The translations under genes and the position numbers were made by a program. From Acholoe squamosa (lineage: Eukaryota; Annelida; Polychaeta; Phyllodocida; Polynoidae): a stretch of 64,000 nucleotides of DNA. The stretch is from NCBI GenBank assembly GCA_949317995.1, contig OX439040.1, positions 24,857,830 through 24,921,829 on the forward strand, written 5' to 3'. The notes below the pieces were generated by a model that ran no database searches, had not been told where the DNA came from, and saw only the letters and a program-made list of their open reading frames with translations. This document shows, piece after piece, positions 26,905 to 57,381 of the stretch. The stretch's first letter is position 1. The number at the start of each line of letters is the position of its first letter.

Positions 26905-27782
26905 GTGTTTTGGCCGTCAGTGGGTACCCCTTCTGAAACATCCTGCAATGGTACTATAGGGAGCAGGTCCAACGCAACATAGATGCCGGCCCAATTAAAT
27001 TATCCTTGGGTTCTAAAAGCTTTGGTGCATGGCCTCCTTGTTAACCCCGAGAGTGAATATACTTTGAGTTGTTAAGCAGTTTGGGGAAGTTAGCCATAGT
27101 TTTGCTGGTGCGGCCTGCCTCCAGTTAAACCTAGTGCTTGGGCATTTAGTTCTCAGCCCTTACAACAGGATGTGTTATAACCACGGGTATAGCTCTATTA
27201 TCTACCACTAGGTGGACTTAGTGAGCTGCAATTATCTCGCTCCAAACACTGTATTAACGGCGGTTTATCTGACTAGATAGTGCTGCAAACCCAACCGGGC
27301 TATCTAGTATCTGTAGATTTAGGTTCATCATTTAGACACAAAGTGTCCTTCCATGGTGCACTGGCCCAGCTTTTCCATATACCTCATTCAAACAATGATA
27401 GTGTCCCCATTCTTTGCAGGTACCTGTATTTGAGCATTTTAAAATTCAGCTTCATTGGTTTATGAATACTGCATCAAGGTTCAATATTCCCTCTTGACAT
27501 GATCCACAAGTCACCACCACTGCATTCAGGGGTGTCAGAAGTAACTGGACTTGGGCGGGGGGCAAAGCACCTCAATAATGCATAATTTGGAGGTTTTCAC
27601 CTTTAGCATCACACTGGGAATCCTTTAGAAAATCTAAATAATTGTGTCCTGCTTGTAAGGTCAATTTGTGAATAAATGGTTGAGGTTTTGATATCCGCTC
27701 ACACTGCTTTCCAAACTTGGGGTTGGCAACAAAACACATTCCGATTGGGGGCTGGGAGCATGGCAACGCACTGTGGGTTGCT
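26104..27782. other. Non-coding stretch containing a TA tract
   Basis: Apart from the TA microsatellite at 26834-26902, no gene or repeat is recognised. Confidence 0.4.
26834..26902. repeat. (TA)n microsatellite
   Basis: An uninterrupted TA dinucleotide tract of about 69 nt. Confidence 0.98.
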
Positions 27783-28147
27783 GGGTTGATACACCCAATA
27801 GGGTCAGCATGATACATGATTGCAGACATCAATGTTGGGTTGATCAACCCTATAGGGTCAGCATGATACATGATTGCAGACATCAATGTTGGGTTGATCA
27901 ACCCTATAGGGTCAGCATGATACATGATTGCAGAAATCAATGTTGGTTTGATCAACCCTATAGGGTCAGCATGATACATGATTGCAGAAATCAATGTTGG
28001 TTTGATCAACCCTATAGGGTCAGCATGATACATGATTGCAGAAATCAATGTTGGTTTGATCAACCCTATAGGGTCAGCATGATACATGATTGCAGAAATC
28101 AATGTTGGTTTGATCAACCCTATAGGGTCAGCATGATACATGATCGT
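27783..28147. repeat. 54-bp minisatellite, ~6.7 copies
   Basis: The unit is 54 nt and begins GGTTGATCAACCCTATAGGG. Unit starts are at 27783, 27837, 27891, 27945, 27999, 28053 and 28107. The first copy has a diverged start. The first two copies share a GCAGACATC variant, and the later ones GCAGAAATC. GGTTG starts the first three copies and GTTTG the rest. Since 54 is a multiple of three, the array is open in frames on both strands; the 205-codon minus frame (27572-28189) with an 18-residue repeat arises this way. Confidence 0.95.
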
Positions 28148-28272
28148 AGAATTTACGGCTGCTGTGCATCCTTTCATGAAACCAAGCATATTCTTGGTTT
28201 CTAGTCTATAGAATAAAGTGATAGGAGATGAGGTTCGAGAGTGACAGGGTTGTTTTCTTGCTGTTCATATAT

Positions 28273-29271: not shown

Positions 29272-29658
29272 ATGAGATAATAGCACGGGTGTACCTTATT
29301 TACAAAGATCTATATCTCCCCATTTTGTTATTCCTTACAGGTGGGTTAGTGGGGATATCATGGTGTACCTTTTTAACTGTAATCTATATCTCCCCATTTT
29401 GTTATCCCTTACAGGTGATATAGTGGGGATAGCATAATTCACCCTTTTAACTCTAATCTATATCTCCCCTTTTTGTAACCCTTTGCATACATGTGATCGT
29501 GGGGACAGCTTGGTGTACCTTTAAAACTGTTATCTAACCCTCCTCTTTCTGTTACCCATTACAGGTGAGATAGTGCGGATATATAGCATGGTGTATACCT
29601 TTTAATCTATATCTCCCCTTTCTATTACTCCTTACAGGTGAAATAGTGGGGATAGCGC
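29272..29658 (+). repeat. ~74-bp tandem repeat of an intron-exon boundary
   Basis: About 5.3 copies of a unit with a TATATCTCCCC pyrimidine tract, a CCTTACAG acceptor and the first ~21 nt of the following exon (GTGATATAGTGGGGATAGC type). The AG positions are 29340, 29414, a decayed one near 29492, 29564 and 29637, so the spacings are about 74, 78, 72 and 73 nt. Only the last copy runs into the long open exon. The unit is not a multiple of three, and each upstream acceptor would lead into an in-frame stop before the exon body. Confidence 0.85.
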
Positions 29659-29827
29659 TGGGTGCGGCGTGTGCCTTCTTCCTGCTGGGAGCCCTGCTGT
29701 ACCTGGCCTTCCGCCTGGTGCGGAGAAGGAGGAAGGACCAGGAGGAATATGAGAAGATCCTGCCTTCGTCCCAGGGTATCTCACCTGCCTCCTCAGAACC
29801 CAAGTCTGTCTACGTCCCTAACCTCAG
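29638..29827 (+). CDS. Exon of a single-pass membrane protein (transmembrane helix and tail)
   Basis: A 190-nt exon bounded by CTTACAG before 29638 and AG|GTAGGT at 29828. It starts with the last two bases of a split codon, then reads 62 codons and ends after two bases of the next. The peptide starts G/S-E-I-V-G. It then has a ~23-residue hydrophobic helix rich in Ala, Leu, Phe and Gly, then RLVRRRRK as a stop-transfer signal. A polar tail follows with tyrosines in EEYEKIL (a YxxI-type sorting or signalling motif) and SVYVPNL. The exon is much richer in GC than its surroundings and has no internal stop. Orientation is inferred as extracellular part upstream and short tail in the cytoplasm. 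No ectodomain is visible in the window, so the family stays unknown: an adhesion or receptor-type protein is possible. Confidence 0.75.
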
Positions 29828-32438: not shown

Positions 32439-32493
32439 ATCGGAGCTGACCGGAACTACTAACCAGTCGTATAATGCGGCTGATCCTAAGTAA
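32439..32493 (+). CDS. Last exon of the membrane protein, C-terminal 17 residues and stop
   Basis: It is preceded by a polypyrimidine tract and TTTTCAAG. The first base completes the split codon left by the 29638-29827 exon (AG + A, Arg). It then reads S-E-L-T-G-T-T-N-Q-S-Y-N-A-A-D-P-K and stops at TAA, 32491-32493. The exact phase match, the acceptor and the higher GC support it. The C-terminus is polar and has a further tyrosine (QSYNAAD); it does not end in an obvious PDZ-binding motif. It is short, so an accidental match cannot be ruled out without transcripts. Confidence 0.62.
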
Positions 32494-33045
32494 AGCATGG
32501 AATGAACATACAATGACTCAGTAGTACAACATATTGCATATAAATAGTGTTTCCCTGAGAATTTCGAGGCTAAATGAAAAAAGGTGTGTTTCACGTTACT
32601 GTACCTTATACTGATCAGACCCTGGTAATTATTTTCCAATTCTTAAGAGAATTACTGATATGTTCATCTATTCACTCACTAAGAGCTGGAAGCTGCTATC
32701 TGGGCCCAGAGTAAAAAAAGAAAAAAATATTATAAAAACAATCTGACCTATCTACATCATGTAACCTGAAACACCTTTATTTCCTCTCGACCTCCTGCCT
32801 AATTTCCCACTGAGCTCTTTATAAGGAAGATGTGCATAAATGTTTAGAGACTACAGGTAATTCACACCAGCTCCTGGTGAAAACGACTCCTAGAGCAGAA
32901 CCTTTCACCTACATAAGCTATAGTTGTTATGTACTATTGTAGCCTTTGCATTTGTACACTTGCTAGTCAGTCCATTCTTTACCTAGTACTTCGTTTGGTC
33001 GTATTGGACGCCAAAGATAAAATAAAACTATGACACCAAAGGAAA
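32494..33045 (+). other. Probable 3' untranslated region
   Basis: It follows the TAA at 32491 and runs to the first convincing polyadenylation signal. No competing AATAAA was noticed between the stop codon and 33021. Confidence 0.45.
33021..33026 (+). promoter_or_regulatory. Polyadenylation signal AATAAA
   Basis: A canonical hexamer about 530 nt after the stop codon, with a GTTGTTTG GT-rich element some 20-25 nt downstream. This is the likely 3' end of the membrane-protein transcript. Confidence 0.5.
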
Positions 33046-35201: not shown

Positions 35202-35498
35202 ATCCGGACGGGAAGCGATATACGAACAAGGAAAAGGTGGTCACAGGACAGCACGAGAGAAAGGTGGTCACAGGACAGCACGAGGGAAGGGTGGTTTCAG
35301 GACAGCATGGGGAAAAGGTGGTCACAGGACAGCATGCGGGGAGGGTGGTCACAGGACAGCATGAGGGGAGGGTGGTCACAGGACTGCATGAGGGGAGGGT
35401 GGTTACAGGACTGCATGAGGGGAGGGTGGTTACAGGACAGCATGAGGGAAGGGTGGTTACAGGACAGTAACATTAGAGGGTGGTCACAGGACAACGCT

Positions 35499-35723
35499 AC
35501 CCAGCAAATTGTCGTCATCTGTCGCCATGATTGGTCATCAATGGTGACTCCTTTTTGAGTGATAACTCATTCCGTCATCTTTCGCCACTGTGTGTTAGAC
35601 TCACGTGGCATAGCAATTGCTATTCCTGGTGATCTTGTGCTATAACGACGTCGTGTTCCATCTAGTGACATGTGTGAGCCACTTCACACAGGTTGTTGAG
35701 AACTCACGACAATTTGCTGGGTA
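35499..35723. mobile_element. MITE nested in the fold-back element
   Basis: The ends TACCCAGCAAATTGTCGT and ACGACAATTTGCTGGGTA are inverted. It interrupts the 27-bp satellite, whose units resume just after it. Another GCTGGGTAG end lies near 36043-36051 and may belong to a second, incomplete insertion. Confidence 0.75.
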
Positions 35724-36331
35724 TAGTGAGGGTGGTTACAGGACAGACTGAGGAAGGGTGGTTACAGACACACAAAGGAGGGTGGTTAAAGGACACAAAG
35801 GGAGGGGTGGGTACAGGACACACAATGAGGGGGGGGGTCTCATGCACTCAAAACCTTCCCCTTGAATGGATTTTTTACCAACGTTTTTCAAGTGTTTTTG
35901 AAACATAGAACAACATATTTCTGACATCTAGGTATCTAAAACGTGACTAAACCTTAACGTTTTGACCTCCACATACCAAGCAAATCTATGTAGTGGGCTA
36001 CGTAGATATACCAGTGTGCAATATCTATGAATGTGTGTTTGCTGGGTAGTCCCGGGACCTTCCCTTCCTTGTGTCCTGTGACCTCCCATTCCTTGTGTTG
36101 TCCTGTGACCACCCCTACCACAGTTGTCCTGTGACCACCCATTTTCCTTGCAGTCCTGTGACCAGCCTTTCCCTGTGCAGTCCTGTGACCAGCCTTTCCT
36201 CACCTTGTCCTGTGACCACCCTTTCCTCACATTGTCCTGTAACCACCCCTGCCTCATGTTGTCCTGTAACCACCCCTGCCTCATGTTGTCCTGTGACCAC
36301 CCCTGCCTCATGTTGTCCTGTGATGTCTTTT

Positions 36332-36366
36332 TCCTCGTGCATATAGTGGCACTATATGCACGAGGA
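36332..36366. repeat. Short perfect hairpin
   Basis: CCTCGTGCATATAGT faces its exact reverse complement across a 3-5 nt loop. It lies at the outer edge of the right arm of the fold-back element and has no counterpart in the left arm. Confidence 0.8.
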
Positions 36367-43307: not shown

Positions 43308-44065
43308 ATTTTTACCAGAGGCTTTATAGATCTAGGTTGTGAACCTAACATGGATAAGAACTACAGATTTATCATGTGGAGCAGGAGATTTTCCCCCATA
43401 ATTTTGGGGTTGGGGCCATTCACCCCAGAGCCCCCCCCCAAGAAAATTTACAATTTTTACCAGAGGCTCTATAGATCTAGGTTGCAAACCTTACAGGAGC
43501 ACAAATAAGAACTACAGATTCAGGGTGTGAGGGAAGGAGATTTTTCCCCACGTAATTCTAGGGCTGGGGCTATTTACCCCTGAGCCCCCCCCCCCTCAGA
43601 ATATTTGCAACTTTTACCAGAGGCTTTATCAGGCTTGGGAAAAGGTAACATGCTGCCAACAGTGGACAGGAGAAAAACGTTGGCCATATCTCGACTAATA
43701 ACACTGTATGTTGAGGAGCCTGGGCCACTGTTGGACAACTCCCCACTGTTGGACAGTGGGGGCCTGGGCCACTGTTGGACAACTCCCCACTGGTGGACAC
43801 TGGTCTACCACTATACAGGTTCACTTCTTTGCACAAATCATTATTGCCATGCACAAATTGAACTTTTTATATTTAACCTTAAAGCATATGAAATTCAATT
43901 GTTTATAGATCTAGGTTGCAAACCTTTCTAGCACAAATGAGAACTGCAGATTTAAAGTATGGGTGGCAGTTGTTTTTTTTTATATTTCTAGGGTTGCTAT
44001 CCTTCTAGAGCACAAGTAAACACTACACATTTAGGGAGTGGGGGTAGGAGATTTTCAACTTTGGT
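43308..44065. repeat. ~150-bp tandem repeat, four diverged copies with an insertion
   Basis: Units starting TTTACCAGAGGCT(T/C)TATAGATC recur at about 43311, 43458 and 43612; a fourth resumes at about 43898. Each has a GAACTACAGATT block, a GGAGATTTT block and a C-run. Copy three is interrupted at about 43626 by some 270 nt of unrelated sequence that itself carries a 44-nt duplication (43718-43799, starting GCCTGGGCCACTGTTGGAC). Confidence 0.8.
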
Positions 44066-56160: not shown

Positions 56161-57381
56161 AAATTTTCAGGCAAGTGCACAGGCAGTGGTTTTGTATGGT
56201 CTGCAACCCAGATATATCATGCACCAGAGAACAGTCTACTACCAGATCCCTATAGTCTAATATTGGGAGCACCATCTGCTTGTACAGTCTTAAGGATGAA
56301 TCCTTATCCATGTACTTTCGGAGGCTTCTCAGGTGTTTCAGCCTACCCCTTGCATTTACAGCCACTCTCTTGCAATGCTCTGAGAAAAACAGGAATCTGT
56401 CTACTACCACACCTAAGTAGTTGAAAGAATATACACTTTCGAGGACATTATTTCCCAGTCTGATTTAACAACCAATCAGGTCAGGAATGTCCCTGTCTGA
56501 ATAAACCCACAATACCTTGGTTTTCTCCACATTCACCGTCAATTTAAATGTGTGGCACCACCTTGCAATTCTATCTAAATCTTCTTGTTGTTTCCTACAA
56601 TTTTCATCAGGGACTTAACCGTACGTGACAATAGCCAGATCGCCTGCAAACATAAAGTAGTCTGAGTTGTCAGTAACAACAAAAATACAGATATAGGCCA
56701 AAAAGAGCAATGGGCCGAGCACTGAGGCCTGCGGCACTCCACATCCAATAGTCCTGACCTCTGAGACATGACCGATGGCCATGGTGGTCTGTGTGACAAT
56801 CTATATAGCTTTTAAACCAGTCGAGAGTATCAGCTACACACCCCAACTTTTCCAGTATCAGTAACAATAATGTGTGATTTACCTTGTCGAATGCCTTCCT
56901 TAGATCCAGAAATACTACAGAAGACCTTTTTCTAGCATTGTATAGACATTGCACCAAACTATACACAGCATCAGTGGTTGACCTTCCAGCTCTGAAGCCA
57001 AATTGTTTGTCATTCAACAGGTTATTGGTTCATTAGCTGTGTATGTACCACCTGTTCCACTAACTTTGATACACAATTCAATTGACTCACTGGCTGCCAG
57101 TTAGTCACTTTTGATAGGTCCCCAGCTTTAGGGAGGGGAACTACACATGCTTTCTTTAGTACATCAGGAAATTGACCATTTAGTATAGAGCTATTGATCA
57201 AGTTCCTAAGTGTATCAGGCCTAACCGGTAGTACATCCTTCACAACGCTAGGTCTTACATCTTCAATGCCAGATGTCTTGTGAACCTTAATTGTCTGGAC
57301 TAATCTGAGTGCAGTTGGTAAATCAATGGTTGATAGACTAAACTCTAGGTCAGCCATTGGCAGAAAGGTATTTGGATTCAT
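56015..57381 (-). pseudogene. Reverse transcriptase of the LINE, broken
   Basis: From 57381: KVHKTSGIEDVRPSVVKD, then VVPLPKAGDLSKVTNWQPVS (motif 1 and NYRP-like). After a TAA near 57022 come QFGFRAGRSTTDAV and motif A VVFLDLRKAFDKVNH (Asp codon near 56904-56906). Motif B reads GVPQASVLGPLLFLAYI in another frame. The catalytic FADD is FAGD here (56639-56650 on the minus strand), so one catalytic Asp is lost. From 56410 the thumb-like region (NARGRLKHLRSL, LYKQMVLPILDY) follows. Several stops and shifts make it non-functional. Confidence 0.88.

Follow-up and report, generated by a model that had tools for sequence, protein, structure and literature searches.

The acceptor of a predicted transmembrane exon in Acholoe squamosa is preceded by tandem copies of itself. 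The locus raises the question of whether these copies are a passive product of duplication, an aid to the removal of the intron, a switch that regulates the message, or a plain intergenic repeat to which splicing has no relevance.

Positions 29272-29658 of the window, i.e., of the whole 64,000-nt stretch of DNA that was analysed, contain a unit of about 74 nt in about five tandem copies. Tandem Repeats Finder delimits the array to 29308-29656 (period 74, 4.7 copies, 72% matches, score 321), and this result, together with an alignment of five units, bears out the repeated splice-acceptor unit that a preliminary description of the locus had proposed. In the alignment the unit begins with an intron end (a pyrimidine tract and TTACAG), continues with about 20 nt similar to the exon start, and ends with a linker. 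As judged from repeat detection and alignment, the unit straddles the predicted intron/exon border. The array is probably a mirage, that is, a minisatellite produced when an intron/exon border is duplicated in tandem, the border in this case being the acceptor of the predicted transmembrane exon, and it would be passive, decaying and tolerated. The features are as follows; splice matrix scores are in parentheses.

29272-29307, + strand: partial copy 0, a remnant of the exon start plus linker, with no acceptor; read by eye
29308-29381, + strand: copy 1, predicted decoy acceptor AG at 29339-29340 (9.75) and donor-like GTGGGT at 29341 (5.94); splice matrices
29382-29455, + strand: copy 2, predicted decoy acceptor AG at 29413-29414 (9.1) and donor-like GTGATA at 29415 (2.82); splice matrices
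29456-29531, + strand: copy 3, decayed, without AG; unit alignment
29532-29604, + strand: copy 4, predicted decoy acceptor AG at 29563-29564 (6.48) and donor-like GTGAGA at 29565 (6.89); splice matrices
29605-29658, + strand: last copy, with the true (predicted) acceptor AG at 29636-29637 (8.58; donor 3.08) and the exon start; matrices and alignment
29638-29827, + strand: predicted coding exon, in phase 1 and out phase 2, with a hydrophobic helix, RLVRRRRK and a cytoplasmic tail; exon scans
32439-32493, + strand: probable terminal coding exon, (R)SELTGTTNQSYNAADPK and a stop (acceptor 4.35), frame-compatible with the 29638 exon and joined to it by inspection
33021-33026, + strand: possible poly(A) signal AATAAA; sequence read

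Age and origin of the array

The acceptors at 29340, 29414 and 29564 are intact and one copy is decayed, as described earlier: three of the four full upstream copies have an intact AG/GT (the slash marks the junction), and the copy near 29490 has no AG. Over the whole unit, the four upstream copies are pairwise 58-84% identical, and because of this degree of divergence the array looks old, with little recent turnover. TTACAG is kept in at least three of the four decoys with a probability of 0.138, given the divergence of each copy. The motif thus displays no excess conservation, and selective upkeep of the decoys is not supported. The divergence between copies, the one dead copy and the P value of 0.138 all speak for a passive array. 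A passive minisatellite was one of the options in the preliminary description and is the best supported of them, with mirages as a named precedent. The tuning of productive splicing, which was offered beside it, finds no support in the TTACAG result.

The array would have originated by slippage or unequal exchange and would now be in decay. In a search of the 1.48-Gb assembly (63 contigs), with very common words skipped, a 629-nt stretch gave one match at E <= 0.001, and a transposon, satellite or dispersed-element origin of the array was rejected on this basis. An Rfam search of the window gave zero matches.

Other repeats are present in the window. A 54-nt minisatellite, open on both strands, occupies 27782-28151 (6.9 copies, 97% matches). 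Arrays of a 27-nt minisatellite are found in opposite orientations (fold-back) at 35219-36345 of the window and at L027:3017-3623; the arrangement recurs on contig C1, and the fold-back minisatellite is for this reason probably a dispersed element. Within it, at 35499-35722, is a short insert that resembles a small transposon and has the inverted ends ACCCAGCAAATTGTCGT. Intron minisatellites termed "reflective" are described from earthworms in the accessible part of PMC12783039. On the minus strand, a reverse transcriptase fragment is found at 56673-57029 (Pfam RVT_1, E 5.9e-13).

Splice-site strength and the fate of decoy use

The splice matrices consist of generic frequencies and are not trained on Acholoe squamosa. 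By these scores, the acceptors at 29340, 29414 and 29637 rank 2nd, 3rd and 4th among the 4000 AGs of the + strand of the window, and 22 of the 4000 score at least 6.48, the value at 29564. The top + strand acceptor AG of the window is at 43991 (10.19), outside the array, and exon scans show no exon after it. When those of the 126 tandem arrays in 264 kb that have a period >= 30 are compared, the 29308-29656 array has the best consensus acceptor (8.5, the next being 8.2). It should be noted that decoys 1 and 2 outscore the true acceptor, which counts against a purely passive array.

The intact copies also have a donor half, a feature absent from the preliminary description. The exon starts with GTGAAA and the intact copies with GTGGGT, GTGATA and GTGAGA, giving CAG/GTG, so that each acceptor is donor-like as well. 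The array thus has four dual AG/GT sites, with acceptor scores of 6.48-9.75 and donor scores of 2.82-6.89. On the + strand of the window, these four are the only AG/GT sites with an acceptor score of at least 6 and a donor score of at least 2.5, and the minus strand has two. In the 229 kb upstream of the array, a similar mixed cut-off is passed by 6 of the 1090 AGGT sequences of the + strand and by 7 of the 1054 of the minus strand. Two + strand sites, C6:24833224 (L020:5395) and window position 2535, have TTTCCAG/GTGAGTCG in common (acceptor 9.3 and 5.7, donor 8.5 each) and are candidate recursive splice sites or repeat copies.

In the frame of the true exon, every decoy acceptor leads to a stop ahead of the helix. 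The earlier reading to this effect holds, with its counts of 24-25, 6 and about 13 codons becoming 27, 7 and 13 for 29340, 29414 and 29564 when the junction codon is included. The stops, at 29421, 29435 and 29603, leave 404, 390 and 222 nt, respectively, up to the predicted junction at 29827. Nonsense-mediated decay follows, as a usual rule, from the distance between a stop and a downstream junction, and 222-404 nt has the geometry that the rule describes. Decay of a decoy message would be likelier than a secreted form, and the secreted form suggested earlier is unlikely because the decoy stops lie so far upstream of 29827.

If the array is a passive mirage, splicing would occur mostly at 29637, because, by exon definition, the last copy is the only one that leads into a real exon, complete with a donor; an open coding exon is found only downstream of this copy. 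Occasional use of a decoy would be tolerated, since its product would be either re-spliced or removed by nonsense-mediated decay. A used decoy could recreate a donor, with the upstream half supplied by the previous exon, and a second splice from GTGGGT or GTGAGA to 29637 could then restore the normal message. The distances left over between the decoy donors and the true site are 297, 223 and 73 nt.

An alternative, which appears unlikely, is that the array actively aids the removal of a long intron: the stronger early decoys would be used first, each would recreate a donor, and the rest of the intron would leave by a second, recursive splice. Copies 1 and 4 would suit this role, as they fuse good donors (5.94 and 6.89) to acceptors of 9.75 and 6.48, but the donor of copy 2 is poor (2.82). 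The intron does extend to the left edge of the window, if the missing 5′ exons are outside the window. Against this role, known ratchet points are situated within long introns and not within 300 nt of an exon, and copy 4 and the true site are 73 nt apart, a step near the minimum intron size. The second border repeat of the assembly, described below, is of no help to this alternative, as its copies are poor acceptors (0.48). According to the accessible part of PMC10809524, human introns between dual-specific sites are 8.4-fold enriched in tandem-repeat genes, but dual-specific sites are under-represented among annotated splice sites, 2.7-fold at 5′ sites and 4.7-fold at 3′ sites. If decoys were cleared in this manner, border minisatellites would persist preferentially at exons that start with a donor-like GT, and their tolerance in the genomes of distant phyla would be explained.

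It is quite improbable that the array is a regulated switch, whereby the use of decoys, tuned by copy number, sets a non-productive or secreted fraction. The stop that follows each decoy acceptor before the helix would serve such a switch, and, in the single-unit fold, a hairpin (-17.8 kcal/mol, z -3.25) encloses the acceptor of copy 2. The stop-to-junction distances predict decay and not secretion, however, TTACAG has no excess conservation, and folding of the whole array is no better than that of shuffled sequences (z -0.24). Nor does the hairpin separate decoys from the true site: in single-unit folds, copy 2 and the true copy (z -2.23) fold better than most shuffles, a result graded weak, and copies 1, 3 and 4 have z values of -0.39, 0.25 and -0.19.

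The predicted transmembrane exon and its gene

The 190-nt open frame at 29638-29827 has a GC content of 0.59 and a GC3 of 0.73, in surroundings of about 39% GC, and ends at a donor scoring 6.1. It is the top + strand exon candidate in two scans of the whole window and in a scan of its first 40 kb. A search of the assembly with the exon peptide (10 candidates scored) gave a sole match at E <= 10, the exon itself, and paralogues or a multicopy gene were rejected accordingly. Assignment to a named protein family was likewise rejected, the two Pfam matches (E 0.034 and 0.047) being below cut-offs. A PDB search with the exon product gave one match, at E 2.5 and over the helix only, and no clear relative.

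In the window, no 5′ internal exon that leaves in phase 1 passed the cut-offs of the splice/ORF scan, and the three initial-exon candidates that passed are weak. Pfam searches of the three + frames of 1-29298 gave no domain above cut-off, with one match under it at E 0.079. In the 200 kb upstream of the window, where the ORF scan alone was applied, 10 + strand candidates passed the cut-off; several are retroelement-like or repeat-like and none is convincing. This lack of a convincing 5′ exon in the regions scanned counts against the passive mirage. The 5′ exons may be missing because the intron is very long, because the ectodomain is low in GC or because the gene is dead.

It is very improbable that the 29638 exon is a relic whose 5′ gene has been lost, which would make the array a plain intergenic minisatellite and its splice logic moot: the upstream scans and the Pfam and PDB results are in line with such a relic, but the GC3-rich open frame with good splice sites at both ends, the helix with its basic stretch and the frame-compatible exon at 32439 argue for a live exon.

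Border repeats elsewhere and known systems

Other repeated borders were looked for among exons of CUB genes, a sample chosen by domain and not at random. A CUB family search of the assembly gave 498 candidates, with 150 scored and listed. Among those listed, 33 matches fall in a 39-kb cluster on contig C14, where 24 predicted exons overlap a match; weak exons are below the score cut-off. Of the 48 borders in this cluster, one lies in a tandem repeat, and GT is the start of 4 exons out of 24. Chance overlap would place 0.34 borders within arrays whose period is 20 or more. The case shows that the assembly also has a border repeat at a donor, which speaks for the mirage reading, and one case against 0.34 expected is no evidence of enrichment, a point that weighs against the passive reading. 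In 30 kb of the cluster, 39 borders listed by hand had been probed earlier, and this repeat was the only one to emerge. The repeat is at the donor of a CUB exon, C14:37402198-37402311 (L025:1199-1312), in a gene on the minus strand, and has a 37-nt unit in 3.1 copies with 97% matches. Its donors score 8.46 (true), 7.59 and 6.39, and with such poor acceptors it is not a dual-site array.

Outside the 48 borders, L027 and L028 have 0 predicted exons and L029 and L030 have 9 (18 borders). Two probe flags in L029/L030 correspond to a low-complexity false exon and to a single 20-nt match. An intronic 74-nt minisatellite is found at C1:93640235-93640603 (L031:236-604), with 5 copies, 99% matches and an acceptor-like TTCTTCCCTTGCAG in each unit; it was rejected as a border repeat, as it lies before, and not at, the next readable exon.

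The gene order of the mitochondrial contig, nad3-S-nad2-cox1-N-cox2-D-atp8-Y-cox3, fits annelids (cox1 by Pfam, tRNAs by ARAGORN, and nad3, nad2, cox2, cox3 and atp8 by eye). On this contig nad3 adjoins nad2, and nad1 was not seen. According to the accessible part of PMC2639372, annelids and related groups feature nad3 between nad1 and nad2.

A comparison with recursive splice sites, or ratchet points, shows a common arrangement, i.e., an acceptor directly followed by donor-like sequence. The array differs in being tandem, less than 300 nt from an exon and predicted from sequence only. Tandem dual-specific splice sites have been described for human UBC and VCX3A, and their repeat unit, like that of the array, contains AGGT as a potential acceptor or donor; the UBC unit is an in-frame coding module, whereas the array units are intronic, carry stops and have a predicted dual role (accessible part of PMC10809524). 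The authors argue there that expansions of dual sites are less harmful, since they can be removed by splicing. By score, an AGGT core in both acceptor-like and donor-like context is found at four sites of the array.

The closest likeness is to mirages, the original paper on which reportedly dates from 2002 and dealt with Adh. The array is also a natural experiment on the choice that the spliceosome makes between acceptors of almost identical sequence in a stretch of 300 nt, and if decoys are re-spliced, exons that start with a donor-like GT should have border arrays more often than others. As described in the accessible part of PMC3087553, mirages are minisatellites of intron/exon borders in the amphioxus Adh3 and globin genes, and RT-PCR data for both are cited there as a sign that mirages leave regular splicing undisturbed. 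The amphioxus mirages (Adh3, BflGb6 and BflGb9) and the array share minisatellite-like copies of a border, many but not all of which keep AG/GT, and the BflGb6 mirage is likewise on the acceptor side (PMC3087553). According to PMC3087553, mirage units are 10-72 bp in Adh3 and 150-160 bp in the globins, and mirages have RT-PCR support in cephalochordates; the annelid array has a unit of 74 nt and is known as sequence. In the array, every intact copy scores as both acceptor-like and donor-like, which sets it apart from mirages. The difference in host group, an annelid in place of cephalochordates, limits the known range and is not a structural feature. Searches of the open-access literature, partly aimed at annelids, found no report of border minisatellites in this group; the earthworm metallothionein genes have minisatellites in the first intron and not border repeats, according to the accessible part of PMC12783039. 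The array thus probably extends border minisatellites from amphioxus to an annelid, a new phylum for a known kind.
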